Source of the DNA: Planctomycetaceae bacterium
Lineage (GTDB): Bacteria > Planctomycetota > Planctomycetia > Planctomycetales > Planctomycetaceae
Assembly: GCA_021732415.1 (NCBI GenBank)
Contig: JAKFVC010000066.1
Location: 1 to 43,848 of the forward strand
Length of the DNA: 43,848 bases
Direction: 5' to 3'
Shown: positions 11,330-43,848 of the stretch, piece by piece
Numbering within the stretch: the first letter of the stretch is position 1
Layout: each line of letters begins with the position of its first letter
Position numbers and translations under genes: made by a program
Notes under the pieces: model-generated
The model's input: only the letters and a program-made list of their open reading frames with translations
The model's database searches: none
Told to the model about the DNA's origin: nothing

Positions 11330-11356
11330 TCACACGCAAATACAAGGAATTGTTTC

Positions 11357-12239: not shown

Positions 12240-12345
12240 TCATCTGCCTGCACTACCTGTTTTGAACTGAAACCGAATGCCGCCTGCGGACACATGCCGC
12301 GGCGTCCATTTAGTGTGGCCTAGTTTCCCTCGAAAGGACTCTCTC

Positions 12346-12837
12346 ATGGCTGGAATTTTGTTGTCGCAACGCGGCCTTCTGGACCGCGTTCTCGTCGGGA
12401 TCGTGTTCTCGCTCGCAACGGTTTCTTATGTTTGGTCAGCCCCACCCGCCGCGGGGCACGCGCATCCCGAGAAGGGACCGCATGGCGGCCCCCTGCTGGA
12501 ACTGGGTGACGAAGAGTTTCACATCGAAGTCATGCTCGATGAGAAGACGAACGTACTCACGCTCTATGTTCTCGATGCCGCCGCCAAGGCGTCGGTGCCG
12601 ACTGAAGCCAAGGAAGCGGTGATCAATCTCAAGCATGCCGGGAAACCGGAACAGTTCAAGCTGAAAGCGGTGCCATTGAAAACCGATCCCGCGGGCATGG
12701 CTTCGGCGTTTCAGTTGAAGGACGAAGAACTGGTGCATGATCTGCACCACAAGAATAACGATGCCCGGCTGTCGCTGAAGATCAAAGGCAAGCCCTATAC
12801 CGCCAAGTTCGAGCTGAAGCACGACCACAAGCACTAA
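12346..12837 (+). CDS. His-capped periplasmic protein (HxHPEKGPHGG family)
   Basis: The ATG at 12346 has the leader AAAGGACTCTCTC. The in-frame ATG 69 bases upstream lacks one and would bury the signal. The 163-residue product has a signal segment (about residues 8-30), the motif GHAHPEKGPHGGPLLELGD, then FHIEVMLDEKTNVLTLYVLD and a beta-rich domain ending in a His tail (HDHKH). Two lipoproteins in this window (22512 and 27240) share the same plan: His-rich cap, Gly-containing turn, xHxE strand and beta domain. It precedes the CzcB-like adaptor and may deliver metal to it, by analogy with CusF, which it does not resemble in sequence. Confidence 0.65.
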   Translation: MAGILLSQRGLLDRVLVGIVFSLATVSYVWSAPPAAGHAHPEKGPHGGPLLELGDEEFHIEVMLDEKTNVLTLYVLDAAAKASVPTEAKEAVINLKHAGKPEQFKLKAVPLKTDPAGMASAFQLKDEELVHDLHHKNNDARLSLKIKGKPYTAKFELKHDHKH

Positions 12838-12871
12838 TCGTTGAGGGCACTTGTTGACGCGCCCGGTTCTG

Positions 12872-12902
12872 CCCGGTGTCGACGATCAGTCGTCGCGCCG
12901 GG
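12872..12902 (+). other. Intercistronic hairpin before the CzcB-like gene
   Basis: CCCGG (12872-12876) pairs with CCGGG (12898-12902), and inside it CGACGA (12880-12885) pairs with TCGTCG (12890-12895) across the loop TCAG. The stem lies between the 12346 gene and the adaptor gene. With no T-run after it, it is more likely an mRNA-stabilising or expression-ratio element than a terminator. Confidence 0.4.
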
Positions 12903-12996
12903 TGGCGCTGGGATTTTTCCCGCAGACCACGGATTGCTGCCAGCAGCCTCCGAGGCAGCGATTTGCACAACAGAAACTTGTCAAAGAAACTCGATC

Positions 12997-14457: not shown

Positions 14458-14545
14458 TCCTTTCTCGTTTAAGTCGAGGCTTGCGTGCGGAAGACATTCC
14501 GATCTTGAATCGCCCGCCCGTTGGAATTGGAAGAAAGTCGGGATT

Positions 14546-16729: not shown

Positions 16730-16751
16730 TGGCAAAAGGATTGGCGTTTTC

Positions 16752-19700
16752 ATGAACTGGCTCATTCGCTTTTCGCTTCATCATCGTCTGCTGGTCGTTT
16801 CCCTTGCGATGGTTGCAATGGTGCTCGGGACACGGACGATGATCGGGCTGCCGATCGACATTTTCCCGAATCTCACGCGGCCGCGTGTGACCGTGATGAC
16901 CGAGTGTCCCGGTCTCTCGCCGGAAGAGGTCGAAACCCTCGTAACGTTTCCGTTGGAAACGGCCTTCAACGGCGCGACGGGAGTGGAAGCCGTTCGCAGT
17001 TCATCTGGGATCGGTTTATCGGTGATCTATGTCGAATTCGGCTGGAACACCGACATCTACGTCGCACGGCAGACGGTCAATGAGCGCCTCGCAACGGTGG
17101 CCAGCCGGATGCCAGAAGGGGTGAAGCCGGAACTCGCACCGATCAGTTCCATCATGGGCCAGATCATGATGATCGGCATGTATAGCGAAGGAGGCAAGAC
17201 GCCGCCGTTGGAAGTCCGCACCCTTGGGGATTGGGTTGTCCGGCCGCGGCTGCTGACGATTCCCGGTGTCGCACAAGTCATCACGATGGGTGGCGGGCGC
17301 AAGCAATTTCAGGTGCTGGTGAATCCCGAACAACTCACCGCTTTCGGCGTGACACTGCAAGAGGTCGAAACCGCCCTTCGCGAAAGTAATGTCAACGCCA
17401 CGGGGGGCTATGTCGAGCAAGGCTCCCTGGAATTTCTGGTCCGTGGCGTGGGACGCATTCAGTCGGTAGCCGACCTGGAAGAGTCGGTGGTAAAAGCGAC
17501 GGCGGGTCGTGCCGTTGTGCTCCGCGACGTGGCCAAAATTCGGGAAGGCGCACAGCTCAAACGGGGTGATAGCTCCGTCAACGGTCACCCTGCGGTCGTT
17601 TTGACCATCGCGAAACAGCCACAAGGGGATACGCGGCATCTCACGGATGCCGTGATCGCGGCGGTCGAAGAGGTCAAGAAGGCGCTTCCTCCTGATATCG
17701 TCATTGAAACCGAAATCTACCAGCAGCGCGAGTTCATCGACCGGGGCATCGAGAACGTACTGGAAGCGCTGCGTGATGGTGCGATTCTCGTGCTGATCAT
17801 TCTGTTTATGTTTCTGCTCAACTTTCGGACGACCTTCATCACACTGACGGCCATTCCGCTGTCCATCGTGTTGACGGGACTGTTCTTCTATTGGACCGGC
17901 ATGTCGATCAACGTCATGACGTTGGGAGGACTAGCCGTGGCGATGGGTGAACTGGTAGACGATGCCATCGTCGATATCGAAAACGTGTTTCGGCGTTTGG
18001 GACAAAACGCGGCTTTGCCCAAACCGCGACCCGATCTGACCGTGATCTACGAGGCGAGCATCGAGGTCCGCAGCGCCATCGTCTATGGCACGATGCTCGT
18101 CATTCTGGTGTTCGTCCCCTTATTCGCTTTGTCCGGTGTCCCGGGCCGGTTGTTTGCTCCACTGGGTGTGGCTTACATCGTATCGATTCTAGCCTCCTTG
18201 CTGATCTCGCTCACTGTGACGCCGGTGTTGGGGAGCTTGCTGTTGTCGAGCAAATCCTCTCAATCTCACGGAGCCAAAGACAGCCCACTGTTGCGGTTCT
18301 TGAAAGCACTCGCCACCCCCATCGTGCGGACCAGCATGCACCCGTGGGGATTGACGGCGATTCTGCTGGTGGTGGGAGCGGCAATGGTGGGCAGCGGCAT
18401 TCTGGTCATGCAACTCGGAACCGATTTCTTGCCGAGTTTCGATGAAGGGGCCGCGCAGGTCAACATTGTCTTGCCGCCGGGCTCATCGTTGGAAACCTCA
18501 AACCGTGCCAGCCAAATGGTCGACAAAGCATTTCGTCGTCACATGGTGGACAAGGAGCATCCCGCCGGCCTCGTGCTGCATTGGGTCCGCCGCAGCGGGC
18601 GTGCGGAACTCGACGAACATGCCGAGGGTGTGAACATCACGGAGTACATCGTCACATTCAACCCGCAGAGCGGTGTTTCGCGCGTGGACGGCTTGGCCAC
18701 CCTCCGCCAAGAACTGGAAGAGATTCCGGGCATCGAATACGAAGCCGAACAACCGCTGGCCCACCTGATTAGTCACATGTTGTCCGGGGTGTCAGCACAG
18801 ATCGCAATCAAGCTCTACGGCGATGACCTCGATGTCCTGCGGCGCAAAGCGCAGGAGATCAAGACGGCGATTGCGGGAGTCGAAGGTCTTGCCCCGCCGG
18901 TCGTGGAGCCGCAGCAGTTGATCCCCCAACTGCGCATCGATCTGAACCGCGAGCAACTGGCCGCATATGGATTGACGGCGGGGTTCGTCAACGAATTCAT
19001 CGAGACGGCCCTCAACGGCCGCGTGGTCTCGACGGTCCTAGAGGGGCAGCGGACCTTCGATCTCATGGTCCGTTTGGAAGACGAGTACCGCACCGACTTT
19101 GAACAGATTCAGCGATTGTCGATCAACCTGCCGCAGGGGGGACGGATTCCCCTCTCCACCGTGGCGCGGATTTATGAAGCGGGTGGCCCGAACACGATCA
19201 ACCGCGAAAATGTTCGTCGTCGCATCACGATTCGCTGCAACACGACCGATCGCGATCTCGGCGGCGTCGTGGCCGATATCAAGCAGGCCATTGAGGCCAA
19301 AGTGACGTTGCCGGAAGGGTATTTCGTGCAATACGGCGGGCAATTCGAGGCCCAGCAAGAAGCCACGCGCATGATCACACTGCTCAGTTTCGTGTCGGTG
19401 GGCGGCATGTTTCTGGTGCTCTATACGCTGTTCCCCTCGGCCCGCATCGTATTGCAAATCATGTTCGCACTCCCCACGGCCTTCGTCGGCGGCGCGATCG
19501 CCCTCTGGTTGACCGATCAGACGCTAACCATCGCCAGCTTGGTCGGCTTCATTTCGCTCGGCGGTATTGCCGCACGGAATGGCATTCTGCTCGTCTCCCA
19601 CTACATGCACCTGATGCGCGAAGAAGGTGAAGGCTTTACCGCGGACATGGTGCTTCGCGGCAGTCTCGAACGTCTCGCTCCCGTCCTGATGACCGCTCTC

Positions 19701-19943
19701 ACTGCGGGAATCGGCCTGGTACCGCTCGTCATTGGCGGCCATCAACCCGGCAAGGAAATCCTTTACCCCGTGGCGACGGTGATCCTCGGCGGCCTCATCA
19801 CCTGCACAATCTGCGAATACGTCGTCCACCCCGGCTTGTTCTTCCAATTCAGCGGACAGGACGCCAGCCGACTGACGAGTGGAGAGGAGATTGAAGCGGA
19901 ACAGAGTCCAGCACCGGCTAATTCCATGATTGAGGGATTGTGA
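16752..19943 (+). CDS. CzcA-like heavy-metal RND efflux pump (first)
   Basis: The ATG at 16752 (AAAGGATT upstream) begins MNWLIRFSLHHRLLVV, a typical CzcA/CusA start; an earlier frame overlaps the ATPase gene. The 1063-residue pump shows the RND plan: TM1, the porter domain with GLPIDIFPNLTRPRVTVMTECPGLSPEEVE, TM2-6 with the proton-relay segment GELVDDAIVDIENVF (about residues 397-411), a second periplasmic loop and TM8-12 with GGIAARNGILLVSHY. The first half carries RRSGRAELDEHAEGVN, shared with the second pump at 30061. It likely takes Zn, Cd, Co or Cu from the periplasm or inner leaflet to outside. Its stop codon overlaps the next start (TGATG). Confidence 0.92.
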   Translation: MNWLIRFSLHHRLLVVSLAMVAMVLGTRTMIGLPIDIFPNLTRPRVTVMTECPGLSPEEVETLVTFPLETAFNGATGVEAVRSSSGIGLSVIYVEFGWNTDIYVARQTVNERLATVASRMPEGVKPELAPISSIMGQIMMIGMYSEGGKTPPLEVRTLGDWVVRPRLLTIPGVAQVITMGGGRKQFQVLVNPEQLTAFGVTLQEVETALRESNVNATGGYVEQGSLEFLVRGVGRIQSVADLEESVVKATAGRAVVLRDVAKIREGAQLKRGDSSVNGHPAVVLTIAKQPQGDTRHLTDAVIAAVEEVKKALPPDIVIETEIYQQREFIDRGIENVLEALRDGAILVLIILFMFLLNFRTTFITLTAIPLSIVLTGLFFYWTGMSINVMTLGGLAVAMGELVDDAIVDIENVFRRLGQNAALPKPRPDLTVIYEASIEVRSAIVYGTMLVILVFVPLFALSGVPGRLFAPLGVAYIVSILASLLISLTVTPVLGSLLLSSKSSQSHGAKDSPLLRFLKALATPIVRTSMHPWGLTAILLVVGAAMVGSGILVMQLGTDFLPSFDEGAAQVNIVLPPGSSLETSNRASQMVDKAFRRHMVDKEHPAGLVLHWVRRSGRAELDEHAEGVNITEYIVTFNPQSGVSRVDGLATLRQELEEIPGIEYEAEQPLAHLISHMLSGVSAQIAIKLYGDDLDVLRRKAQEIKTAIAGVEGLAPPVVEPQQLIPQLRIDLNREQLAAYGLTAGFVNEFIETALNGRVVSTVLEGQRTFDLMVRLEDEYRTDFEQIQRLSINLPQGGRIPLSTVARIYEAGGPNTINRENVRRRITIRCNTTDRDLGGVVADIKQAIEAKVTLPEGYFVQYGGQFEAQQEATRMITLLSFVSVGGMFLVLYTLFPSARIVLQIMFALPTAFVGGAIALWLTDQTLTIASLVGFISLGGIAARNGILLVSHYMHLMREEGEGFTADMVLRGSLERLAPVLMTALTAGIGLVPLVIGGHQPGKEILYPVATVILGGLITCTICEYVVHPGLFFQFSGQDASRLTSGEEIEAEQSPAPANSMIEGL

Positions 19944-27842: not shown

Positions 27843-30053
27843 ATGCGTGCAGTTTTGTTGTCGATCTCCGCAGGGTTGTTGCTCGCCGGAATGACCGCGG
27901 CGCACGAAGGACATGCTCCGCTCCCCACGCGGGGGGCAGCACTCGATCCGGCCACCGGAGTGCTGCGTCTCAGCCGCGAAGCGCGCGGGACGTTGGGATT
28001 GGAAACCGTCGAAGTCGAATCCCGCGAGATTTCCGAATCCACCTTCGCTTACGCCACGTTGTCGGCTCCGTGGCTTGGGCAAGCCTTGGTCAGTTCCTTG
28101 CTGCCAGGACGAATCGTGCGGCTGCATGTTCGCGCCGGTGACTCCGTGAAGCAGGGACAGGTGCTCGCCGAAATCGACAGCCAAGAACTGCAAACGCTGC
28201 GGATGGAATTGCTGACGGCCCAAAATGAGGCCCAGCTTTCCCGAAAACTCGTCGCGCAACTCCGACCGGCGGCCAAGTCCGGGGCCGTTCCTGCGCAACG
28301 ATTGCTCGAAGCCGAGACGAAGCTGCGGCAGGAAGAGAACGCGCTGACCCTTGCCAAGCGCCAATGGCAGAACTTGGACTTACCTGCGGATCGACTGGAA
28401 AAGCTCCTTGCCGGGGAGGATCGCGAACCGCTGCTCCTGGCAGTTCGGTCCCCCCTCGATGGCACCGTCATTCATGCCGATCTCTCGGTCGGAAAGATTA
28501 TCGATCCGAAAGAACATCTGTTCGAGGTGGTGAACCCCGCGACCGTGTGGGTCCAGGTCGATGTGCTGGAGAAAGATTTGCAGCGCGTCAGCTTGGGACA
28601 GTCCGTGGAACTCAGCCTCACCGCGTTCCCTGGTAAAACGTGGTCGGCCACGATCGATAAGCTGGGACAGTCACTGGATCCGGCCACGCACATCGGGCGG
28701 GCTTGGGCCACACTGCACAACCTAGCGGGGGAGACTCCGCAACTTCTGCCCGGCATGTCGGGGCAGGTCCGTTTGCAGCAGACGATGGCGGCCAAACGTC
28801 TCACCGTCCCCCTGGCGGCAGTGTTACGCGATGGAGCCGAACGCTACGTGCTCGTGGAAACGGCCGCGACCAAAGAGGGCTCGGAATTCAAAAAGCAGAG
28901 CGTTATCCTGGGGCGGCGGATGGGCGTCTACGCCGAAGTCCGCGGCGGGGCGCTCCTGCCCGGCGACCGGGTGGTCACCAAAGGCAGTCATGAGCTGTCG
29001 AGTTTCTACGTCAAAGGCTCGTTACGGCTCTCGAAGGAAACCGCAAAAGATATCGGCCTCGAAGTCCAATCGGTCGGGCCACAGATCATCGCGGATGTCT
29101 TTGAGGCGGATGGCATGGTCGACGTGCCGCCCGACCGACGTTCCATTGTGGCCTCGCCGTTGTCCGGAACGATCGTGCGGATTCTCGTCGACCGCGGGCA
29201 ATCCGTGCGAGCCGGAGACGTGATCGCGGAAGTTCGTAGCCTCGAACTTCAATCCCTGCAAATGGAGTTGCTCAAGGCCCGCTTTGACGCGGAGCTTCAA
29301 ACCGAAGTGCTGGCGAATTTGCAGACCGCGGCCGAAAACTTGCCCCAACGCCGCCTGTTGGAAGTCGAGTCCGCATTGGCGGCGGCCCGGATTCGCCAAG
29401 AGGGCTTACAGCAACGGCTGCGGACATTGGGATTATCGAGCACGGAATTAGACGGGCTAGTCGAACGGGGAGAACTGGTCTCCGGGCTATCCTTACGCGC
29501 ACCCATTGACGGAGTAGTGGTGCGTTTCGACAAACTTCTGGGGCATGTGGTCCGGGCGGATGAACCCTTGTTTGAACTGCACGATCTCTCCCGCTCCTAC
29601 GTGCAGGCGTTCGTGTCCGAACGCGATGTCAGTCGGATTGAGATCGGACAGTCGGCACGACTCCGCTTCGCCGCTCGGCCGGGAGAAGTGCTTCTGGGCA
29701 CGATCGCTCGCAGCGGCCAGATTCTCGGCGATACGTCCCGCACCCTCTCGGTCTGGATCGAAACTGCCAGTCCGAGTGATGCTCCGCTCCCTCATAACGC
29801 CCTGACACGAATAAGTCTCAGCGGTGAGCAATTTTCCGCTCCGATGGCTGTACCCCGCACGGCATTATTGCAAGAGGGAAGCCGCAGCTACGTCTTCGTG
29901 CAGTTACCGGAAGGTCTCTTTCAACGGCGACTGGTCCAGCTTGGTCGGAGAGATGACTTGTTCGTGCAAATCCTCGCGGGACTCAAGAACGGCGAAGTGG
30001 TGGCCATACGCGGCGTGTCTCAACTCCAAACCGGCTATGCCGCGATTCGATAG
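27843..30053 (+). CDS. Tandemly duplicated CzcB/CusB-like RND adaptor
   Basis: The 736-residue product (ATG 27843, GAAAGG upstream) is about twice the usual adaptor size. A signal peptide (about 1-20) is followed by two full adaptor modules. Residues 41-128 (LRLSREARGTLGLE ... MELLTAQ) align with residues 394-480 (LRLSKETAKDIGLE ... MELLKAR), and each is followed by a helical hairpin and a lipoyl half with the DGTVI/DGVVV strand. Each module carries a barrel region with the GQSVELSLTAFPGK / GQSARLRFAARPGE phrase. One chain would do the work of two, changing the usual six adaptors per pump trimer to three. The CzcA gene follows 7 bases later. Confidence 0.85.
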   Translation: MRAVLLSISAGLLLAGMTAAHEGHAPLPTRGAALDPATGVLRLSREARGTLGLETVEVESREISESTFAYATLSAPWLGQALVSSLLPGRIVRLHVRAGDSVKQGQVLAEIDSQELQTLRMELLTAQNEAQLSRKLVAQLRPAAKSGAVPAQRLLEAETKLRQEENALTLAKRQWQNLDLPADRLEKLLAGEDREPLLLAVRSPLDGTVIHADLSVGKIIDPKEHLFEVVNPATVWVQVDVLEKDLQRVSLGQSVELSLTAFPGKTWSATIDKLGQSLDPATHIGRAWATLHNLAGETPQLLPGMSGQVRLQQTMAAKRLTVPLAAVLRDGAERYVLVETAATKEGSEFKKQSVILGRRMGVYAEVRGGALLPGDRVVTKGSHELSSFYVKGSLRLSKETAKDIGLEVQSVGPQIIADVFEADGMVDVPPDRRSIVASPLSGTIVRILVDRGQSVRAGDVIAEVRSLELQSLQMELLKARFDAELQTEVLANLQTAAENLPQRRLLEVESALAAARIRQEGLQQRLRTLGLSSTELDGLVERGELVSGLSLRAPIDGVVVRFDKLLGHVVRADEPLFELHDLSRSYVQAFVSERDVSRIEIGQSARLRFAARPGEVLLGTIARSGQILGDTSRTLSVWIETASPSDAPLPHNALTRISLSGEQFSAPMAVPRTALLQEGSRSYVFVQLPEGLFQRRLVQLGRRDDLFVQILAGLKNGEVVAIRGVSQLQTGYAAIR

Positions 30054-30060
30054 GCTTCCC

Positions 30061-33000
30061 ATGCTTAATACCATCATCTCCTGGTCTCTGCACAATCGCG
30101 GCATCGTGTTAGTGCTTGCACTCGCAGTGCTGGTCGGCGGCAGCTACCAGTTGTCGCAAATGCCCGTGGACGTTTTCCCCGATCTCAACCGGCCGACAGT
30201 GGCGATTATGACCGAAGCGCCGGGCCTCGCTCCGGAAGAGGTCGAAGTCCTTGTCACCCGGCAATTGGAATTTCTGCTGAATGGTGCGACCGGTGTGCAA
30301 CGGGTCCGCTCCGCATCCGGCATCGGTCTGTCGATTGTGTGGGTCGAGTTTGAATGGGGCACGGACATCTACCGGGATCGACAGATTGTCGCCGAAAAAC
30401 TCCAGATCGCCCGTGCGCAATTGCCACGTGATGTCAATCCTGTGATGGCTCCCATTTCGTCGATCATGGGAGAAATCATGCTGCTGGGTTTGCGCTCCAC
30501 CAAGCAAGCCGTCACTCCCGCCGAAGCGGCGGCGATCGCGATGGAACTCCGCACGCTGGGCGAATTCGATGTCCGCAACCGTTTGCTGGCGGTGGATGGG
30601 GTTTCGCAAGTCACGGTGATGGGAGGTTTGTTCAAGCAGTATCAGATCGTCACGTCACCGGCCCGCTTGGCAGCGCAGAGTGTCTCCTTGCAACAACTCG
30701 TGGATGCGGCCGGGAAAGCCAACGTGCTGGCCGGCGGTGGGATCGTTGTGCGGCCGCCCCGTGAGGCTTTGATTCGGATCAGTGGGCAAAGTCTCGCGCT
30801 GGAAGATTTGGGGAACACGCCCGTGGTGTGGCGCGAGCCCCGGCCCGTCCTCATCAAGGACGTCGCCGATGTCCGATTTGATGGTCCTGTGAAACGCGGT
30901 GACGGCAGTGTGCAAGTCAAAGAGGGCGACCGGATCGTCGGCGGCCCCGCCGTGATGATGACGGTGCAAAAGCAACCGGGGGCCGACACCCTGACCTTGG
31001 ATGCGGCAATCTCGAAAGTGCTCGATCAAATGGCCGAAGACCTGCCGGACGGCGTGGTCATCGAACGCCGCATCTTCAAGCAGGCGGACTTCATTACCGC
31101 CGCGGTCGACAATGTCGTGGAAGCCATTCGCGACGGCGCAATCTGGGTCATCGTCGTGCTGTTCCTGTTCATGTGGAATTTCCGCACCAGCATTAGTTCG
31201 TTGACCGCGATGCCCCTGTCGATCCTGCTCACCGTGCTCTGCTTTCATTGGTTCGGCATCACGATCAATACCATGACGTTGGGCGGCATCGCGGTGGCCA
31301 TTGGCGATCTGGTCGACGACAGCATCGTCGACATTGAGAACATCTATCGCCGCCTTAAAGAAAACCGGCACAAGCCGAATCCCGAACCGGCGCTGAAGGT
31401 GGTCTACGACGCTTCCTGCGAAGTCCGCAATTCGATCGTCTATGCCACGCTGATCGTCATTCTGGTCGTCTTTCCACTGTTTTCGATGGCGGGATTGGAA
31501 GGCCGCATGTTCGCTCCGCTAGGGGCGGCCTACATCACGTCGCTGCTGGCGTCGCTCGCGATTTCTCTGACAATCACTCCGGTCTTGGGCTACTACCTGC
31601 TGCCGGGGGCGAAGTTTCTCGATGAGGCCGGCGATCCTTTCTTGTTGCGATGGCTCAAGCAAATCTCAGCCAGGGTGCTCAAGCTCACGCTACGGCACGC
31701 CAATTGGGTTCTGGCTGTGACCGCGGTTGGCGTCGTGATCTCGTCAGCCGCCATGTTCTGGATGGGGGGCGAGTTTCTGCCGCCGTTCAATGAAGGGACG
31801 CTGACGATCAGCTTGCAGACCGAACCGGGGACGAGTCTCGACGAAAGCCAGCGGGTCGCCGGCCGTGCCGAAGCCTTGATTCTCGAAGTGCCGGAAGCGC
31901 TGGCCGTCTCACGCCGCACGGGTCGCGCGGAACTGGATGAGCACGCCGAAGGAGTCAACTCTTCCGAGATCGACGTCCGGCTCGTCGAACACACCCGCCC
32001 CAAGCCCGGTTGGTGGCCGGGGGCGCTCCGGATGATTCCCATCGCCCATCTGTGGGGTTATGAGACGGAAGGCCGTCCGCGTGACGTGGTGCTCGCCGAT
32101 ATTCGTGACCGCATCACCGCGATTCCTGGCGTGAAGGTCAACATCGGCCAACCGATTTCGCACCGCATCGACCACATCATGTCGGGGGTGCGAGCCCAGA
32201 TTGCCGTCAAGGTCTTCGGGACGGATCTACAAGAGTTGCGAATCGCCGCCCAGGACGCTTTCACCGAGATGAGCCAGGTGCGTGGCGTCGTGGACCTGCA
32301 AATGGAACCACAAGTCGAGATTCCCCAGGTGCGGTTGCAGGTCCAGCGCGAAGCCGCAGCCCGACATGGTCTGGCTCCCGGCGATGTCGCCACGCTGCTG
32401 GAAACCGCGTACAAGGGCCAGGTCGTCTCACAAGTGCTGGATGACGATCGCTATTTCCAAATGATGGTCTGGTTTGATGAGGAATCACGCAGCGATCCCG
32501 AGGTCATCGGCCAGACGATCCTTGATACGCCATCCGGCCGTAAGGTGGCACTCAGCGAAGTCGCCGAAGTGCTCGACACCACCGGCCCCAACACGATCAA
32601 CCGCGAGCATGTCCGCCGCCGGATCGTCGTGTTCTGCAATGTCGAGGGCCGCGACTTGGTCAGTGTGGTGCGCGACATCCGCCAACGACTGCTACCACTC
32701 GAAGACCGACTCCGCGAACTCCCCGGTAACTACTACGTCGAACTCGGCGGCCAGTTCGAGGCGCAACAGGATGCCAATTTCCGCCTGCTAGTCCTCGGCA
32801 GCGCATCGGTGATCGGGGTCTTCCTGCTGTTGTGCAAATGTCTCGAATCCTGGCGGGCCGCCCTTCAAGTGCTGGTCAACATTCCCTTGGCCGCGATGGG
32901 ATCGGTCATCACACTCCTGATTGTGAATCAACCCACATCGGAAGCCCTGGCAGCGGTGCCGTGGTGGGAATGGCCGCGGGTATGGATCGGCGCGACGAGT

Positions 33001-33465
33001 TTGTCGGTGGCTCACTGGGTGGGGTTCATCACGCTGATCGGCATCGTCAGCCGCAATGGCATCATGATGATTTCCCACTACATTCATCTGATGCAACACG
33101 AAGGCGAACCCTTTGGCGAAACGATGATCATCCGCGGTACTTTGGAACGGCTCGCCCCGGTGATGATGACCGCCGCCACGAGCTTCATCGGCTTGCTGCC
33201 GTTGCTGTTCGGGGCGGGACAGACGGGCAAGGAAATCCTGCATCCGCTGGCACTGGTGGTCTTTGGTGGCATGCTGACGTCGACGCTGCTGGACCAACTC
33301 GTGACCCCTGCGCTGTTCTATAAATTCGGCCGCAAGGTATATCAAGCGGGGCGGTCTTCGACGATCGTCCTCAATCCCGATGCGGTGTCGTCTGTTCTCA
33401 TCGAAAACGACACGCCAATGGTCAGGCCACCATCGGACCGACCGATTACTCCTCCGCCGGGTTAA
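30061..33465 (+). CDS. CzcA/CusA-like heavy-metal RND efflux pump (second)
   Basis: ATG 30061 (MLNTIISWSLHNRGIVL) lies 7 bases after the adaptor stop; the much longer open frame starting upstream overlaps it. The 1134-residue pump has the RND plan with PVDVFPDLNRPTVAIMTEAPG near the N-terminus, the proton-relay segment GDLVDDSIVDIENIYRRL, SHRIDHIMSGVRAQIAVKVF in the porter domain and GIVSRNGIMMISHY in TM11. It has two insertions relative to the first pump (1063 residues): one around KPGWWPGALRMIPIAHLWGY and one around VPWWEWPRVWIGATS. Divergence from the first pump suggests a different metal preference. Confidence 0.92.
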   Translation: MLNTIISWSLHNRGIVLVLALAVLVGGSYQLSQMPVDVFPDLNRPTVAIMTEAPGLAPEEVEVLVTRQLEFLLNGATGVQRVRSASGIGLSIVWVEFEWGTDIYRDRQIVAEKLQIARAQLPRDVNPVMAPISSIMGEIMLLGLRSTKQAVTPAEAAAIAMELRTLGEFDVRNRLLAVDGVSQVTVMGGLFKQYQIVTSPARLAAQSVSLQQLVDAAGKANVLAGGGIVVRPPREALIRISGQSLALEDLGNTPVVWREPRPVLIKDVADVRFDGPVKRGDGSVQVKEGDRIVGGPAVMMTVQKQPGADTLTLDAAISKVLDQMAEDLPDGVVIERRIFKQADFITAAVDNVVEAIRDGAIWVIVVLFLFMWNFRTSISSLTAMPLSILLTVLCFHWFGITINTMTLGGIAVAIGDLVDDSIVDIENIYRRLKENRHKPNPEPALKVVYDASCEVRNSIVYATLIVILVVFPLFSMAGLEGRMFAPLGAAYITSLLASLAISLTITPVLGYYLLPGAKFLDEAGDPFLLRWLKQISARVLKLTLRHANWVLAVTAVGVVISSAAMFWMGGEFLPPFNEGTLTISLQTEPGTSLDESQRVAGRAEALILEVPEALAVSRRTGRAELDEHAEGVNSSEIDVRLVEHTRPKPGWWPGALRMIPIAHLWGYETEGRPRDVVLADIRDRITAIPGVKVNIGQPISHRIDHIMSGVRAQIAVKVFGTDLQELRIAAQDAFTEMSQVRGVVDLQMEPQVEIPQVRLQVQREAAARHGLAPGDVATLLETAYKGQVVSQVLDDDRYFQMMVWFDEESRSDPEVIGQTILDTPSGRKVALSEVAEVLDTTGPNTINREHVRRRIVVFCNVEGRDLVSVVRDIRQRLLPLEDRLRELPGNYYVELGGQFEAQQDANFRLLVLGSASVIGVFLLLCKCLESWRAALQVLVNIPLAAMGSVITLLIVNQPTSEALAAVPWWEWPRVWIGATSLSVAHWVGFITLIGIVSRNGIMMISHYIHLMQHEGEPFGETMIIRGTLERLAPVMMTAATSFIGLLPLLFGAGQTGKEILHPLALVVFGGMLTSTLLDQLVTPALFYKFGRKVYQAGRSSTIVLNPDAVSSVLIENDTPMVRPPSDRPITPPPG

Positions 33466-37224: not shown

Positions 37225-38541
37225 ATGCCTGGTTCGACAAAACTGACCGACGACAGCGATGGTCTGAGTAGCGTGCAGATGGCTGAGCCCGATCACAGCT
37301 CGTCGCACGCCAGTGACTCAAGACTCTCAGACCGGCTGGCCTTTCTGGGGTTCGGTGTCTCAGACTGCGACCAACTCAAGGGCCTTCAAGAGCCCTTCGC
37401 GAAAGTGGCGGACGAGTTCTTCGGCGAGTTTTATCGACGACTCACGGCCAATCCGCAGGTGGCAGCCCTGTTACAAACTCCGGGGACTATTGACCGGCTG
37501 ATGGGATTGCAAAGGACGTATTTTACACAGTTGCTCTCCGGTCCCTATGACCAGAATTATGTAGAGAGCCGTCTCAAAATTGGCGCTACGCACGAACGCA
37601 TCGGTTTAGAGCCGACTTGGTATCTGGGTGCGTACTGTCTCTACACGCAACTGTGTTTCCCTGGATTTGCCGCGGAGTTGGGAGCAACCTTTCCGCCCGC
37701 GCTTCTATCCTTACTCAAAATCATCTTCGCCGATATCAGCTTGGTACTCGATACCTACTTTGCCTCCGCGACGCAACAACTTCGGGAACGCAACCTGGAA
37801 CTCGAAGTCGCGCTCAAGATGTACTTTCAGGCGGAAATGCAATTGCAGCACCACGCCCAATTGGCGAGCCACGAGATCCGCGGCACGTTAAACGCGCTCG
37901 CCAATGCGTGCGACGAATTGTGTGATGACTTGTCTGACAGCGTGCCCACGGATGTGGCATCGATTCACGCACAGATGCGCGGCAAGCTCTGGCAACTTTG
38001 CGGTGTCGTGGATGAAATTCTCCAGCCTTCATCCCAACCGGGAAAGCCGGTCGCCGTTTCCCTGGACAGCCTGTTCAAGGAAATCCAACGGCGAACCAGT
38101 CTCTACAGTGAAGGGCGGTCTCTGTCGCTCGTGATTCCCGACGCGACCCAGGCGGTGCTATGGGGCGATCCCGTCGCCTTGCGGGAGGCCGTGGCCAACC
38201 TCGTCGCCAATTCTTTTCGCCACCATCACCGCGACGCCGGGACGATTAAAATCACCTACACACAGCGAGAGTGCGGGCATGAAATTGAGGTCATCGACGA
38301 CGGACCCGGAATTCCTGAAGCGGTTCAAAGCCGAATCTTTGAGCCATTTGTTCGTGGGGCCGCCGTTCGCCCGTCAGGCCGCGGCTTGGGCTTGTACTTC
38401 GTCAAACGGATCGTCGAAGATCACGGTGGCCATATCCGTCTCTGGTCTCAACCGGGAGTGGGAACGAAGTTCACCATTCAGCTTCCGCTCCAGAGCTGTC
38501 ATCCTGCCCCTACTGAAGCCGATCCCGTTCCGGAGATGTGA
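37225..38541 (+). CDS. Globin-coupled sensor histidine kinase
   Basis: The 438-residue protein (ATG 37225, GGGGAAAGGTGC upstream) begins with a protoglobin domain (about residues 50-185: LKGLQEPFAKVADEFFGEFY ... IGATHERIGLEPTWYLGAYC). His123 in IGATHERIG is the likely proximal haem ligand. After a coiled-coil-like linker (about 183-210) is the HisKA H-box ASHEIRGTLN with His216, then the ATPase boxes N (REAVANLVANSF, about 320-331), G1 (DDGPGIP), F and G2 (GRGLGLYFVKRI). No membrane segment is visible, so it is cytoplasmic. It should sense O2, CO or NO and phosphorylate the regulator encoded 3 bases downstream. Confidence 0.88.
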   Translation: MPGSTKLTDDSDGLSSVQMAEPDHSSSHASDSRLSDRLAFLGFGVSDCDQLKGLQEPFAKVADEFFGEFYRRLTANPQVAALLQTPGTIDRLMGLQRTYFTQLLSGPYDQNYVESRLKIGATHERIGLEPTWYLGAYCLYTQLCFPGFAAELGATFPPALLSLLKIIFADISLVLDTYFASATQQLRERNLELEVALKMYFQAEMQLQHHAQLASHEIRGTLNALANACDELCDDLSDSVPTDVASIHAQMRGKLWQLCGVVDEILQPSSQPGKPVAVSLDSLFKEIQRRTSLYSEGRSLSLVIPDATQAVLWGDPVALREAVANLVANSFRHHHRDAGTIKITYTQRECGHEIEVIDDGPGIPEAVQSRIFEPFVRGAAVRPSGRGLGLYFVKRIVEDHGGHIRLWSQPGVGTKFTIQLPLQSCHPAPTEADPVPEM

Positions 38542-38544
38542 GCA

Positions 38545-39927
38545 GTGCATTTATTGCTGGTCGACGATGACGCCGAATATCGCGCCACGATTGCGCGTCG
38601 ATTGCAGCGACGGGGACACACCGTTCAGGAAGCGGAGAATCTGCAATCGGCAATGGCGGTGGCCCGCGCGGAACAGTTTGATGCCGCGGTAATCGACCTG
38701 GAGATGCCCGACGGCTCCGGCGTCACCTTGCTGCATCAACTGAAAGAAGATGACCCCGCGCTGGAAGTCCTGATCCTGACAGGGCACGGCTCGATTGAAA
38801 CCGCCGTGGAAGCGATGCGGCAGGGGGCCTACGACTATCTCACGAAGCCGTGCCGGTTTGAGGAATTGGATACGCGGCTGGCCAAAGCCATTGATCGCGG
38901 TCGACTGAGCCGCGAGAACCAGCGGCTGAAATCCCTCGTGGAGAATGCCACAGCGACAACCGATATGATCGGCCGGTCACCCGCGATGCTGGATGTGCTC
39001 GTCTTTCTGCGGCGGATTGCGGTCACCGACCATCCCGTCATCGTCTATGGGGAAAGCGGCACTGGCAAAGAATTGGCGGCTCAGGCCCTGCATCGCTTCA
39101 GTCCGAGGGCCGAACGGCCTTTAGTGGCGATTAACTGTGCAGCGATTCCCGACGCGTTGCTGGAGAGTGAACTCTTTGGACATGAGCGGGGGGCTTTCAC
39201 CGGTGCCGACAAAGCAAAGATGGGATTATTTGAAGCAGCCAGCACCGGGACGTTGTTCATCGACGAGCTGGGAGAATTGGCGCTGGGACTCCAAGCCAAA
39301 TTGCTGAGGGCGCTGGAAACACGCCGTATTCGCCGGGTGGGGGCGATCAAGGAAACGCCGATCGATGTCAGGATTGTCGCCGCGACCAATCGTGATCTTG
39401 TGCAGGCTGTGGCGGCGGGGCGTTTTCGCGAGGATCTGTACTACCGACTGAACGTGTTGTCCGTCCAACTACCGCCGTTGCGCGAGCGCCGTGATGACAT
39501 CCCGCTGTTGGTCGAACACTTTCTCAAGCGACCGCCTCTCCGAGACTGGACCATTGTCCCAGCGGCATTGGAGAAGCTGGTAGACTATCCGTGGCCGGGC
39601 AATATTCGCGAACTGGCCAATGTGATCGAACGGGCAAAAATTCTGGCCGACGATCTCAAGATTACGCCTTCCCAACTCCCGGACAACATTGTCCGGCCTG
39701 CCCCGCCGATTCGCGTAGCAAGCTCTGGGTTCGTGACTGAGGCGACCAAGCCCGACAAGTTGGTCACCATCGAGCGTGATCACGTCGTAGCCGTTCTCCA
39801 GCGCGAGGGTGGAAACAAATCCCGCACCGCCACCGCCTTGGGCCTGACGCGCCGGAGTCTATACCGCCTGTTGGAGAAATATGGGTTAGCACCAGATTGT
39901 CCAACGGATGCCAATGCTGATTCTTAG
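38545..39927 (+). CDS. NtrC-type sigma54-dependent response regulator
   Basis: GTG 38545 lies 3 bases after the kinase stop. The 460-residue protein has a receiver domain (Asp51 phosphorylation site in VIDLEMPDG; Thr/Lys switch near TGHGSIETA and TKPC), then an AAA+ domain with Walker A GESGTGKE (169-176), the sigma54 contact loop GAFTGA (216-221) and Walker B TLFIDELGE, and a C-terminal Fis-type HTH (KSRTATALGLTRRSLYRLLEKYG). It should activate sigma54 promoters once phosphorylated by the globin kinase. A strong candidate target lies at 40644. Confidence 0.92.
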   Translation: MHLLLVDDDAEYRATIARRLQRRGHTVQEAENLQSAMAVARAEQFDAAVIDLEMPDGSGVTLLHQLKEDDPALEVLILTGHGSIETAVEAMRQGAYDYLTKPCRFEELDTRLAKAIDRGRLSRENQRLKSLVENATATTDMIGRSPAMLDVLVFLRRIAVTDHPVIVYGESGTGKELAAQALHRFSPRAERPLVAINCAAIPDALLESELFGHERGAFTGADKAKMGLFEAASTGTLFIDELGELALGLQAKLLRALETRRIRRVGAIKETPIDVRIVAATNRDLVQAVAAGRFREDLYYRLNVLSVQLPPLRERRDDIPLLVEHFLKRPPLRDWTIVPAALEKLVDYPWPGNIRELANVIERAKILADDLKITPSQLPDNIVRPAPPIRVASSGFVTEATKPDKLVTIERDHVVAVLQREGGNKSRTATALGLTRRSLYRLLEKYGLAPDCPTDANADS

Positions 39928-39980: not shown

Positions 39981-40364
39981 TTATTTAGGTTGGGTCGTCG
40001 GTAGGACTAGCGCGGCGGCAACTGCGGCAGAGATCGCACTGAACCGGACCGGCTTGTAGAGCTGACGGCCGGACGGAATTCCAAGTTCCTCAAATTGACG
40101 GCCAAGACGGCCGTTCAAATGAGCGCTGCAAATAATGACTGGCAGGGCTGGTAACCATTGACGCAGGCATTTCAACGTCTCAATGCCATCCATCCCTGGT
40201 AACTCCAAATCGAGTAATGCCAGCGCTGGATGGATATCTCGCGCCACCCGAAGCGCAGCCTCGCCTGAAGCAACCGCCGTGACGTCGTGTCCCAATCGCC
40301 GCAGCCGGTTTCCCACTGACTGGCGCGTCAAGTCATCATCTTCGACGTAGAGAATCGAGGACAT
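39981..40364 (-). CDS. Single-domain response regulator (CheY-like receiver)
   Basis: I took the ATG at 40364 (MSSILYVEDDDLTRQ), though a longer frame starts at 40427 and neither has a clear ribosome-binding site. The 127-residue receiver has the acid pair (VEDDD), phosphorylatable Asp52 (LLDLELPGMDG), the switch Ser (CSAHLNG) and the conserved Lys (YKPVR). It lacks an output domain, so it is a phosphate sink or adaptor. It is convergent with the NtrC-type regulator gene (53-base gap) and may share the globin kinase as partner. Confidence 0.85.
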   Translation of the reverse strand: MSSILYVEDDDLTRQSVGNRLRRLGHDVTAVASGEAALRVARDIHPALALLDLELPGMDGIETLKCLRQWLPALPVIICSAHLNGRLGRQFEELGIPSGRQLYKPVRFSAISAAVAAALVLPTTQPK

Positions 40365-40481
40365 CGTCGTGCTTTGGTTCGCGGAAGGACACCACTCTCG
40401 GCAGACATCATGACGGCGGTCACGCAAAGCTCATTCCTCAACACCCTCTCCAGCAAAATCGGCTGGGATTCCAAGAACACC

Positions 40482-40499
40482 CTTTCAATTCCTTGAAAG
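40482..40499 (+). promoter_or_regulatory. Palindrome, candidate activator binding site
   Basis: CTTTCAA (40482-40488) faces TTGAAAG (40493-40499) around TTCC, a perfect 7-base dyad. It lies about 145-165 bases upstream of the sigma54 promoter at 40644, a usual distance for an NtrC-type enhancer site. Binding by the 38545 product is an inference. Confidence 0.5.
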
Positions 40500-40643
40500 C
40501 AGGGATGATGCGACGGGTAAAGTGGGCGGCCGCGCGCGCGGTTTCGCACACCGCACACAGCAACACAATCAAGTCTTTGCTTGCCAGACCTGGGATTCGT
40601 CAACAACAGGCTGCTTTTCAGTGATCGCGATGGATTCCGCACG

Positions 40644-40660
40644 TTGGCACAGGTCTTGCG
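40644..40660 (+). promoter_or_regulatory. Sigma54 (-24/-12) promoter
   Basis: TTGGCAC-N5-TTGCG places GG (40646-40647) and GC (40658-40659) exactly 10 bases apart, as in the sigma54 consensus YTGGCAC-N5-TTGCW, with a mismatch only at the last base. It points to the gene at 40864, giving a 5' leader of about 190 bases. An NtrC-type activator is encoded nearby, which supports it. Confidence 0.75.
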
Positions 40661-40745
40661 AATGTGCTCAGTCAAGCACCACACAACACGATTCTTCACC
40701 GACCCGATGTCCTGATGAGACATCAACCGGTGGTTAGCCGCGGGT

Positions 40746-40821
40746 GTTCGCACCGTTTAGCGAACGTGATGCGAGGATTGAGTTGTTCAACAAAATCAGG
40801 ATCCTGAGCATGTGGCTCAGG
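40746..40821 (+). other. Structured 5' leader of the 40864 gene
   Basis: Within the presumed leader, GTTCGC (40746-40751) pairs with GCGAAC (40760-40765). CCTGAGC (40803-40809) pairs with GCTCAGG (40815-40821). TCAGGATCCTGA (40796-40807) is an alternative palindrome overlapping the second hairpin, so two mutually exclusive folds are possible. It does not match a riboswitch class I know. Confidence 0.4.
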
Positions 40822-40863
40822 CCGGTTGAACGTCATTGGACAGTCTGAACGAAGGACAGGATC

Positions 40864-41370
40864 ATGAAAGTGTCAGCAATGTTTGTCGTCACTGCGATGG
40901 CATTCGCAGTGATGGGGCAGTCGGCCTCTGCGCAAGCGACCGGTGGATCGAAAGCGCGCGGCGATGTTTACAACTTCTGGCAAGCGCAGGGCTGGCAACA
41001 GCAGACCCACAGCCAAGCTCGGGCGCTCTATTACTACGGCCAAACCGCGCAGCCGACGCCAGCCCAGTCCAAGGAACACGCCACCGCCGCTCGCCAAGGC
41101 ATTGAGAATGCACACAAGAGCCTCGCCGAGCTGAAGAAATCCAACCCGGACAATAAGGAAGCCTTGGCAGCCATCGCCAAGATTGAAGAGATTCAGAAGA
41201 AAGTGTTGGGGCATTGCGACATGATGGACAAGGCCCTCGCCAAGGGAGATCACGTCGAAATGTGTTCGTGCTGTGCGGACATTGTCCACGAAGTCGATGC
41301 TGTGAATGCAGAGATGACGAAGCTGCAAAAGGCCCTGAAGATTGAGAGCCCGGCATTGCCCAAGCGGTAA
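40864..41370 (+). CDS. Secreted helical protein with Cys/His/Met motif
   Basis: ATG 40864 (AAGGACAGGATC upstream) gives 168 residues. A signal peptide (MKVSAMFVVTAMAFAVMGQSASA) is followed by an Ala/Lys/Glu-rich helical body and a metal-like stretch: LGHCDMMDKALAKGDH and VEMCSCCADIVHEVD. The pattern suggests a small helical bundle with one soft-metal site, distantly like a Csp unit but with few Cys. The sigma54 promoter at 40644 and terminator at 41424 make it a single-gene unit, likely the main target of the globin kinase system. Confidence 0.7.
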   Translation: MKVSAMFVVTAMAFAVMGQSASAQATGGSKARGDVYNFWQAQGWQQQTHSQARALYYYGQTAQPTPAQSKEHATAARQGIENAHKSLAELKKSNPDNKEALAAIAKIEEIQKKVLGHCDMMDKALAKGDHVEMCSCCADIVHEVDAVNAEMTKLQKALKIESPALPKR

Positions 41371-41423: not shown

Positions 41424-41463
41424 AACGGGGTCGTCCGACAGGGACGATCCCGTTCATTTTGTT
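41424..41463 (+). terminator. Rho-independent terminator after the 40864 gene
   Basis: AACGGGGTCGTCC (41424-41436) pairs with GGACGATCCCGTT (41442-41454), one G-T pair included, with a 5-base loop and a T-rich tail (CATTTTGTTT). It would end transcription before the convergent recombinase gene. Confidence 0.8.
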
Positions 41464-41591: not shown

Positions 41592-43544
41592 TCATTCCGT
41601 GGTCGACGGTGCTTGCCGATCCTGATACTGCTGAATATGCCGAGTGACGGTGGGGCTCGACACATTCACTGCCGCAGCAATTTGCCCCGTCGGCAATCCC
41701 TGCTCGTGCAGCGCCATAATTTGCTCAATTACAGATCGTTTCGTGTACGCTTGGGGCTGAGGTGAAAATGGGGCACTGCCAGCTTCGGCGAACACTGGGC
41801 CGAGGTACGTCTCGACGACGCGGATCGCGCGAAACACTTTTCCGAAGGGGCGGTTCGTATATGCGTCCGACAGCGAGTCCGTTTTGACCGGTTCGCCGTG
41901 GCAGTCAAACACGCCCGCAATTTCCCCGTCCGAGTGGCGCTTGATCAGATCGCTTGCCGTCTTGCGAAGTTTACCGAAGGACAAGGGGCGAATTTCCTGC
42001 CCGTCATCGCGGATGCGCTCGATGAGCCGTGCGAATTGGTTGGGCACGGCTTGATTAGAATTGCTGCCTTTAGTTTGTTGATCGAGCGGCGTTCCCCTCT
42101 CATTGAGAATCAGGCGGGACGACTTGGCGAAGCCCGGAAATTGCTGTCGACGTTCTTGAGCCCATTCCAAGCCTTGAACCGTAAGAGGGAAGAGGATGTG
42201 TTCGCCATAGACGCCGCTCTTACGGCGGATCCGCTTGATAAAGCTGTCGTTGTCGTTAGTGGTGAACCCGAGGATTTCCTGTTCGCGGGGCGAGTGTCCT
42301 TTCCGCAGATGGACTTCGCCCACGAGCAACGAAGCGATCTCGGCTCGTCCGAAGCCGCAGTTCAATCCGAGTAGTAGCAACAGTCGGTCGAACGGTTGGC
42401 CGTAACGCATCAACAGTCGCAATTCTTCCAGCGAGAAAGTATCGACCTGCTCCAAACCGCGTTTGGCATGGTCGCTGGGGAGCCGACGAATGCGACGATC
42501 AAAATCGTTGAAGGCTTGGGGCTTCGTCCATTCAAATTCACTTGTAGCGTGCAGCCACGTCAGAAAACGCATTAGCGTCCCGAGGTAATGACTGGCCGCT
42601 TTCGCGCTGATGGGCTCGGTACTCCCGAGCTTACACGGACGACGACGCCAGTACCCGATCAATTCACCAACCGCTGTCGCGTCGAGGTTATTCAGCAATT
42701 CATCAGAGTGATGCCGTTGCAGGTTCTTGATCTGCCGGACTTGGGTACGGCCCCACGGAGAAATATGGCCCGTTTCCTGCCGGAAGAATTCCTTTTGCAA
42801 ATAGGCTTGATAGCGCTTGAATGCTTGGTGAAGAGTTGCCGATGGCGACTTCATTGCGGAGATGGATGGGTTGGAGGCACCGGTTCTTGACGCAGCCGTC
42901 ATCGAGAGCGGCTGCGCGCTTTCGGAGGAACGAACCGCGGCCGGATCACTTGGCTTGAGAATCCCCAGTTCGTGGAGGGGACTTCGAGAAACTTTCCGCA
43001 GGGCTGGCGCGATTCCGAGAGCGGGATCAACCGTGATGCCTGCCTCTCGTGCGAGATGCTGAATCTTTTCCTGTGCCAGCACTTGGTCGTCCGTTAGCGG
43101 TTCGACCTTGAAGTCTGGGACGGTGATCGGAACGGCCTCAAAAAGTTCGAGCGCCGCCTGCCCGATCTCATAAGCGTGTTGGTCTTCAGGAATGAAGCAA
43201 ATCACCGGATACTTCGCCTGCATCCGCTGGAGACGAGCCGCATACTGGTGCTGCATCTCACGTGGCGCGCGGGGGACTGGGATATCGGGGATCCCTTTGG
43301 CAATCCGCGCGGCAATTTCTACTAGTGCTTCCGGCCAGAGAGGGCGGGGTTCTGTGCTGGACTTCTCAAACTGGTCCCACAGTTCTCGAAGTTTTCGTTC
43401 ACGGATTTCCGCCTGCTTGCGGTCCGTCCCGAGGAGGAACTTGTGTTGTTGGAGCTTGCCCGACTTGCTGCGTTCCCAGCCGATCTGGCGGGTATAGTAA
43501 CCGCGGGAGTCCGGAGCCCAATTGAGGCGGCTGCGAGTGGCCAT
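41592..43544 (-). CDS. Tyrosine recombinase (island integrase) with C-terminal HTH
   Basis: The longer frame starts at 43709, inside the ssrA terminator, so I placed the start at ATG 43544 (MATRSRLNWAPDSRGYY), giving 650 residues. The N-terminal part looks like a DNA-binding AP2-like/arm region. The core-binding region is near 236-345 and the catalytic part near 365-585. The likely catalytic Arg is Arg400 in GLNCGFGRAEIASL, the second box is LSFGKLRKTAS (Arg527, with Gly/Lys where His is usual), and the nucleophile is probably Tyr562 (DAYTNRPFG). A homeodomain-like HTH at about 600-640 (GLPTGQIAAAVNVSSPTVTRHI) extends the C-terminus. It should insert the island at the ssrA 3' end. Confidence 0.8.
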   Translation of the reverse strand: MATRSRLNWAPDSRGYYTRQIGWERSKSGKLQQHKFLLGTDRKQAEIRERKLRELWDQFEKSSTEPRPLWPEALVEIAARIAKGIPDIPVPRAPREMQHQYAARLQRMQAKYPVICFIPEDQHAYEIGQAALELFEAVPITVPDFKVEPLTDDQVLAQEKIQHLAREAGITVDPALGIAPALRKVSRSPLHELGILKPSDPAAVRSSESAQPLSMTAASRTGASNPSISAMKSPSATLHQAFKRYQAYLQKEFFRQETGHISPWGRTQVRQIKNLQRHHSDELLNNLDATAVGELIGYWRRRPCKLGSTEPISAKAASHYLGTLMRFLTWLHATSEFEWTKPQAFNDFDRRIRRLPSDHAKRGLEQVDTFSLEELRLLMRYGQPFDRLLLLLGLNCGFGRAEIASLLVGEVHLRKGHSPREQEILGFTTNDNDSFIKRIRRKSGVYGEHILFPLTVQGLEWAQERRQQFPGFAKSSRLILNERGTPLDQQTKGSNSNQAVPNQFARLIERIRDDGQEIRPLSFGKLRKTASDLIKRHSDGEIAGVFDCHGEPVKTDSLSDAYTNRPFGKVFRAIRVVETYLGPVFAEAGSAPFSPQPQAYTKRSVIEQIMALHEQGLPTGQIAAAVNVSSPTVTRHIQQYQDRQAPSTTE

Positions 43545-43566
43545 TGCACCTGAATCCTGACTCGCC

Positions 43567-43618
43567 TTATCGGAACATTCAGTCCGAAAACGGGCCTTTA
43601 TCGGAACAATTATCGGAA
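43567..43618 (+). repeat. Three direct TTATCGGAA repeats in the recombinase leader
   Basis: TTATCGGAACA occurs at 43567-43577 and 43598-43608, and TTATCGGAA again at 43610-43618. The starts are 31 and 12 bases apart. They lie between the recombinase start and the ssrA 3' end, where integrases and excisionases bind arm sites. Binding or autoregulation by the recombinase is inferred. Confidence 0.5.
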
Positions 43619-43687
43619 ATCCGGAGGTCGGCAGGAAAGGAGCCGCTTGCCGAAACCCCAGAAAACACAGGATTTCCAATAAAAATA

Positions 43688-43714
43688 GCCGCTTGCGCGA
43701 AAAACGCAAGCGGC
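43688..43714 (-). terminator. Rho-independent terminator of ssrA
   Basis: GCCGCTTGCG (43688-43697) pairs with CGCAAGCGGC (43705-43714) around a 7-base A-rich loop. Read on the minus strand it sits 7 bases after the tmRNA end and is followed by TATTTTTATT, a T-rich tail. It would end ssrA transcription and insulate the recombinase gene. Confidence 0.8.
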
Positions 43715-43721
43715 TTTCAGA

Positions 43722-43848
43722 TGGAGGCGGCGGGAATTGAACCCGCGTCCTGTTGTCCCTCGGTGATGGCCTCTACGTGTGTATCAGGCTGATTAATCTC
43801 GTTGTGGTCGGCTCAAACTTGCGAAGCCTTCCACAACCAGGTCCCCAC
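43722..43848 (-). ncRNA. ssrA: tmRNA (ssrA), 3' end, partial
   Basis: On the minus strand, the sequence ends with a tRNA-like 3' part: GCGGG-TTCAATT-CCCGC forms a T arm (5-base stem, 7-base loop), followed by the acceptor strand CGCCTCC and A, with CCA not encoded. Before it are GGACAACAGGAC and a stem GTTGTGG/CCACAAC typical of the pseudoknot region. No tRNA anticodon arm fits, and the phrase GGACGCGGGTTC is common to tmRNA ends. tmRNA rescues stalled ribosomes with SmpB. The 5' part and tag codons lie outside the window. Confidence 0.88.

Follow-up and report, generated by a model that had tools for sequence, protein, structure and literature searches.

What controls the gene for a small secreted protein at positions 40864–41370 of this planctomycete contig, and through which upstream site, is the question that the locus raises. 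The window, by which we mean the whole stretch of DNA analysed, is contig C58 (43,848 nucleotides) of a 9.87-Mb genome (G000), and the loci of relatives were found in MAGs named Planctomycetaceae and Schlesneria. The studied region sits between the kinase and regulator genes (37225–39927) and the secreted-protein gene. From sequence comparison we favour, at a probability of about 0.75, a reading in which 40535–40863 is the control region of a sigma-54 unit, on which the regulator encoded in the window, itself controlled by the globin kinase, would act through 40535–40550. The features are as follows.

37225–38541, plus strand: globin-coupled histidine kinase, a candidate oxygen/gas sensor (Pfam Protoglobin 3.5e-31, HATPase_c 6.6e-29)
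38545–39927, plus strand: NtrC-like response regulator (Pfam Response_reg, Sigma54_activat, HTH_8)
39981–40427, minus strand: lone receiver-domain protein (Pfam Response_reg 5.8e-18)
40482–40499, no strand: palindrome CTTTCAA-TTCC-TTGAAAG of the earlier sequence-only reading, judged not to be the operator
40535–40550, no strand: predicted operator (UAS) CGCGCG-GTTT-CGCACA for the response regulator, the top motif match in the window
40645–40659, plus strand: sigma-54 -24/-12 element TGGCACAGGTCTTGC (consensus match, ortholog conservation)
40671–40863, plus strand: predicted 5' leader of ~193 nt, its transcription start site (TSS) placed by spacing from the -12 box
40746–40765, plus strand: small hairpin GTTCGC-N8-GCGAAC, kept in ortholog L007
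40803–40821, plus strand: small hairpin CCTGAGC-ATGTG-GCTCAGG, kept in L007 with one U-G pair
40864–41370, plus strand: secreted 168-aa protein, a predicted four-helix bundle (ORF, hydrophobic N-terminus, structure prediction)
41424–41454, plus strand: terminator-like hairpin followed by a T-rich stretch, ~50 bases past the stop codon (consensus scan only, which gave 10 sites against 5.5 expected in the scanned region)

The kinase matches AfGcHK (5ohe) and HemAT (1or4), and His 123 in its IGATHERIGL segment aligns with a histidine of both, which we take to be the heme ligand. It carries an H-box-like SHEIRG with His 216, and no HisKA match was returned by Pfam. The regulator combines a receiver, a sigma-54 AAA+ domain with GAFTGA and a Fis-type HTH with RRSLYRLLEKY; RRSLYRL is found in 13 of the 16 regulators compared, reads RRALYRL in L134 and L135, and the end of L136 differs. 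Globin kinases resembling that of the window (P0003, E ≤ 1e-30) occur in 30 of 397 genomes. We took 20 stretches from such genomes, one of which is a second G066 stretch without the kinase, leaving 19 planctomycete kinase contexts; in 14 of these a regulator like that of the window (P0002) stands close to the protoglobin kinase, with linked regulators 49.7–55.6% identical over at least 435 residues. Regulator and promoter adjoin in both the window and L007. In the divergent locus L064 (G003:C682), kinase, regulator, a gene of the secreted-protein family, dyad and sigma-54 element lie together in 12.5 kb, a stretch that also encodes a two-receiver protein and a receiver-PAS-kinase hybrid. Compared with the window, these last two proteins matched nothing beyond its kinase, regulator and lone receiver; no hybrid kinase or two-receiver protein was found there. 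By eye, the Nmp-like set of L064 adjoins hydrogenase-like ORFs.

A dyad was first seen by eye among promoters that included those of the window and L078. A palindromic model allowing zero or one site per sequence was next trained on 13 promoters of related globin-kinase/regulator loci, excluding the window and L007. The learned motif, TGnGCG-N4-CGCnCA, reaches a log-likelihood of 60.7, where 60 dinucleotide shuffles gave no value above 39.3. Across the 43.8-kb window it matches best at 40535–40550, with CGCGCGGTTTCGCACA, which scores 16.4 bits (the next reaches 11.7) and ends 94 bases ahead of the -24 box. It is the sole window dyad of at least 13 bits, and it stands before the secreted-protein gene. 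This position, together with the 14 of 19 contexts and the L064 set, bears out the link between secreted protein and globin kinase that the sequence-only reading had drawn. The left half of the window dyad (CGCGCG) is weak. L007 keeps the right half and three of the four centre bases, and a second CGCACAC copy (within 40545–40559) is identical in the window and L007. In the ortholog copy of L078 the dyad scores 7.9 bits (rank 6 in its locus) and falls inside the 3' end of the regulator reading frame. The sequence evidence makes 40535–40550, and not 40482–40499, the most likely operator of the response regulator. The published NmpR consensus GCGCA-N5-TGCGC was also tried as an operator and rejected, having no exact match in the window; with up to two mismatches it gave 47 window matches against 53.8 expected, two of which (each with two mismatches) are in the region, at 40647–40661 (inside the sigma-54 element) and 40760–40774.

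We followed the dyad across 64 members of the secreted-protein family, comprising 59 of 73 profile matches plus five added homologs; the 14 profile matches left out were partial, duplicate or without a retrieved sequence. Profile matches occur in 48 of the 397 genomes of the class. L007, L009 and L078 represent one place, and only L078 was used in family counts. Dyads of at least 12 bits occur in 19 of 63 family upstreams and 14 of 410 controls, and a dyad in order with a sigma-54 match (≥8.5) in 9/63 and 1/410, respectively, where the 63 include the window and leave out the training locus L064; thresholds and gap range (40–185) were chosen after looking, such that p-values overstate the case. 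The ordered pair is absent from 54 of the 64 members. Fifteen other members score 8.5 or more for sigma-54, and 10 of these were scanned as held-out promoters. In eight of the 10 (L059, L062, L074, L075, L077, L149, L150 and L177) the locus-best dyad is no more than 260 bp upstream of the sigma-54 match; L063 and L151 have good sigma-54 sites without a dyad. The remaining five (L156, L158, L162, L165 and L184) lack a correctly ordered dyad that reaches 12 bits. In the family upstreams of L152, L154, L155, L162, L165 and L170, very strong dyads of 18.4–21.0 bits are seen with no good sigma-54 site downstream under our scoring, which suggests divergent -24/-12 boxes or another promoter type.

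The dyad is also found before some of the regulators. It occurs in 7/26 held-out regulator promoters compared to 6/125 control tiles (Fisher 0.0017), although dyad plus sigma-54 match occurs in only 3/26; of 30 regulator loci, 26 entered this count and four, either used in training or at L064, did not. In other genomes, a dyad paired with a sigma-54 match stands ahead of regulator genes and of ATP-synthase-type and universal-stress-type genes (types read by eye). At the genome level, the regulator is not significantly commoner in genomes with the dyad (11/14 vs 18/33, p 0.19), and G072, G267 and G342 have dyads and no such regulator at 1e-115. The genome of the window shows no surplus of the short dyad pattern (220 occurrences vs 376 for the reversed control), and the combined dyad and sigma-54 pattern gives seven matches, two of which are the window site, against six for the control.

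The same genome encodes a second candidate activator on contig C29 (loci L207 and L242). This regulator is 55% identical to that of the window, with nearly the same recognition segment (VNRRSLYRLLEKY vs LTRRSLYRLLEKY), and is accompanied by a receiver-PAS-kinase hybrid and a two-receiver protein; a globin kinase that shares 84% identity with the L064 kinase lies ~6 kb past the two-receiver protein. Together these proteins make up an apparently complete Nmp-like set, and the window pair represents another system. On this stretch of C29, dyads scoring 12 bits or higher occur at five places, several of them strong, near cytidylate-kinase-like, PEP-synthase-like, universal stress and other genes. 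It is possible, if clearly not what we would bet on, that the promoter in the window is sigma-54-dependent but activated mainly by the C29 regulator, or by both, with the window pair as one input among several; the presence of a globin kinase on C29 strengthens this alternative. A paralog of the secreted protein in the same genome (L059, G000:C14) fits such cross-regulation, having a perfect dyad (TGTGCGAATTCGCACA; own -24/-12 match weak at 8.9) while its 14-kb stretch encodes no P0002-like regulator. Against activation from C29 stand the neighbouring regulator and promoter in the window and L007, and the conservation of regulator, globin kinase and family gene together in L064. The earlier proposal that the secreted protein is the main output of the globin kinase thus keeps its link to the kinase, while 'main output' is plausible locally only, because the dyad also precedes the C14 paralog and several genes near the C29 regulator. 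A third protoglobin ORF of this genome (L241, G000:C108:13723–14247, a 220-aa open frame) has no similarity to these globin kinases at 1e-3.

The promoter element itself, TGGCACAGGTCTTGC at 40645–40659, has GG-N10-GC spacing and is the sole full match to TGGCACN5TTGC in the window, in agreement with the near-consensus -24/-12 box of exact 10-base GG-GC spacing first read there. It is identical in ortholog L007 (90% protein identity), at equal distance to the gene. With one mismatch allowed, the window has three matches against 3.9 expected; as such matches are at chance level, the sigma-54 match alone is no proof. Across the genome the exact pattern is seen 36 times, compared to 22 for a reversed control; such genome-wide counts, like those of the dyad, were uninformative. 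The genome encodes rpoN (PF04552 at G000:C56, 8e-63). Sigma-54 scores of at least 13.5 within 400 bp upstream were found for 9 of the 64 family members, among which the window and its ortholog make up one pair, and for 4 of 420 other ORFs from the same loci (Fisher 3e-6, a value that overstates independence as the family rows are partly related).

A chance match, with the gene transcribed from a nearer promoter, is unlikely on these data. This alternative draws on the absence of excess among one-mismatch matches in the window and on a sigma-70-like match at 40837–40865, which overlaps the start codon and is one found against 1.9 expected in the region. It also draws on L006, the nearest other homolog (82% identity; 4998–5540), which has neither dyad nor sigma-54 element and yet keeps the proximal leader, and where a nearer promoter may be in use. 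It does not account for the identity of the element in L007, the family-wide enrichment or the ordered pairing with the dyad (9/63 vs 1/410). Sigma-54 promoter control of gene 40864–41370 is supported.

Transcription is predicted to start at ~40671, which with translation start at 40864 leaves a leader of ~193 nt. The length agrees with the folded leader of about 190 bases proposed earlier, but the folding does not stand out: leader plus first 30 coding bases gave z -1.08, matched in stability by 27 of 200 shuffles; for the ortholog leader, whose predicted minimum differs, z was -0.35 (63 of 200). We consider it quite unlikely that the leader is a structured regulatory RNA whose two mutually exclusive folds provide a second control level. 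Some conservation is in favour of such an RNA. First, L007 keeps most of the leader, including the two short hairpins. Second, the 40803–40821 hairpin retains six of seven pairs in L006, two via double changes, with one pair broken. Lastly, approximately the last 75 leader bases are conserved in L006 despite its lack of a sigma-54 element. The covariation rests on three alignable sequences, which give little power either way. On the other side, stability does not exceed that of shuffled sequence, the orthologs do not share their minimum folds, and tmRNA is the only Rfam family at gathering score in the window; a two-state, riboswitch-like leader was rejected on these grounds, and with it the second control level of the sequence-only reading. 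The kept hairpins are a lead, not a second control level, and the leader needs none.

The palindrome at 40482–40499, first taken to be the regulator's enhancer, is very improbable in that role: it is unique in the genome and plausibly distant from the -24 box, but is found nowhere in the 6.2 kb of L007 or the 15 kb of L078 (both of which keep promoter and regulator end), scores -11.7 bits with the family operator motif, and is of a kind frequent in the window (43 dyads with 7-bp arms and 3–8 base spacers, or 0.37 per 382 bases), and hence is not a conserved part of the promoter. Described at first as perfect, it has 7-bp arms around a four-base centre (TTCC) that is not palindromic. In L007 the regulator reading frame ends within 57 bases of the -24 box. 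The palindrome lies upstream of the lone receiver gene (39981–40427), which is divergent from the promoter, and could belong there. That gene is absent from the corresponding place in L007, and its product has no match at 1e-5 in L078; it is possibly a phosphate sink.

The proposed target is encoded, as first read, by an ORF at 40864–41370 with a hydrophobic N-terminus, which points to export. AlphaFold2, run on 24 sequences, predicts a four-helix bundle (pLDDT 84.9) with residues 1–26 at low confidence. The protein matches no Pfam model above cut-off and no NCBIfam model at 0.001. A fold search of the PDB gave nothing at E ≤ 0.001; the Foldseek matches (best E 0.005) are generic helical bundles, several of them designed proteins, and a PDB sequence search returned weak, mostly coiled-coil matches (best E 0.017). 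With no known family or close fold found, these predicted four-helix proteins would constitute a new family. An alignment of 59 of the 64 members (without L071, L163, L164, L182 and L006) shows Cys 137 in 51/59 and Cys 136 in 41/59, but at three other Cys/His columns (His 47, His 110 and Cys 125) the prevailing residue is missing from the window protein. Efflux-type membrane-fusion, RND or P-type ATPase genes are nearby in seven of nine loci read by eye (L006, L059, L060, L062, L063, L074 and L077), and CusA/CzcA-like RND and heavy-metal P-type ATPase genes are further upstream in the window. From the partly conserved Cys/His residues and these gene neighbours we infer that the secreted protein may bind metal and have a part in handling metal or redox state in the envelope; this stays at the level of inference because fold and PDB searches gave generic or weak matches.

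The closest known system, as described in excerpts of two papers (PMC11841059, PMC6211767), is NmpRSTU of Myxococcus xanthus, in which a hybrid kinase and a two-receiver protein accompany the globin kinase and the NtrC-like regulator. According to these excerpts, NmpR binds GCGCA-N5-TGCGC, raises oxygen-utilisation genes and is proposed to be on at low oxygen, and nmpSTU homologues in Planctomycetes were already mentioned in 2018. To the extent of that text, the likeness is that an NtrC-like regulator coupled to a protoglobin kinase acts on sigma-54 promoters through dyad operators and controls its own operon, with a universal stress protein and a P-type ATPase among the targets. All parts are present in L064 and on C29 of this genome, as likened by domains and published description. 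In contrast, kinase and regulator of the window stand without S (hybrid kinase) and T (two-receiver protein), the half-sites of the planctomycete operator TGnGCG-N4-CGCnCA are in opposite order to those quoted for NmpR, and the same excerpts (PMC11841059, PMC6211767) name no secreted four-helix protein as a target.

For individual components, the globin domain aligns with that of AfGcHK from Anaeromyxobacter sp. Fw109-5 (5ohe; E 2.1e-7; excerpt of PMC8697598), sharing the histidine, while identity is low and heme/gas binding and activity of the window kinase are putative. The regulator has the receiver, AAA+ and Fis HTH domains of ZraSR/NtrC-type regulators, from which the system differs in its sensor, here a globin kinase, and it falls under the NCBIfam cut-off of every model among the best 25 of 115, including AtoC, NtrC and ZraR. 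In the portion of PMC12316311 available, predicted planctomycete regulators are called ZraR-like, and predicted sigma-54 targets in Planctomycetia/Planctomycetota include universal stress and ZraR-like regulator genes, in agreement with the wider regulon seen here. The region is best read as a planctomycete Nmp-like sigma-54 output promoter whose operator differs and whose target family is new.

In the reading that we favour, the protoglobin kinase (37225–38541) would control phosphorylation of the regulator (38545–39927), which would bind the dyad at 40535–40550 (family consensus TGnGCG-N4-CGCnCA) and, by DNA looping, activate sigma-54 RNA polymerase at 40645–40659, with the transcript from ~40671 encoding the secreted four-helix protein. 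Adjacent kinase and regulator would thus form a shortened NmpRSTU-like pathway responsive to oxygen. A more specific version, put forward tentatively and with rather low expectation, is that the pathway is short-circuited: the globin kinase would act directly on the regulator, with no sign-inverting hybrid kinase between them, and the secreted protein would be made when oxygen is bound, not when it is lacking. If true, this short-circuit would couple how the planctomycete envelope handles metal to oxygen or redox state, by way of an operator that recurs in several planctomycete families. To our knowledge, little work exists on oxygen-responsive regulons outside the Proteobacteria and Actinobacteria. 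The titles and abstract openings that we surveyed in the open literature include Myxococcus work and none describing the operator TGnGCG-N4-CGCnCA or its target family.

The analysis provides a concrete predicted operator for the globin-kinase-linked sigma-54 regulator of several planctomycete families, directly testable with one purified protein and one DNA probe. Candidate targets are the regulator gene itself, universal stress protein and PEP-synthase-like genes, and the new secreted four-helix family, several members of which are near efflux genes.

Metal-efflux genes are abundant in the window itself, in the same genome that has the apparently complete Nmp-like set on another contig. Those for heavy metals form two sets (9473–19943 and 27843–33465), which include genes for an outer-membrane efflux protein, CusB/HlyD-like and CusA/CzcA-like RND proteins and a heavy-metal P-type ATPase, the second RND gene of the window being slightly under its NCBIfam cut-off. 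At the window end, the 3' part of a tmRNA gene (43719–43848, minus strand, Rfam) lies beside an ORF of 705 aa (41592–43709, minus strand) with only weak helix-turn-helix matches, and the two could mark a tmRNA-associated genomic island.
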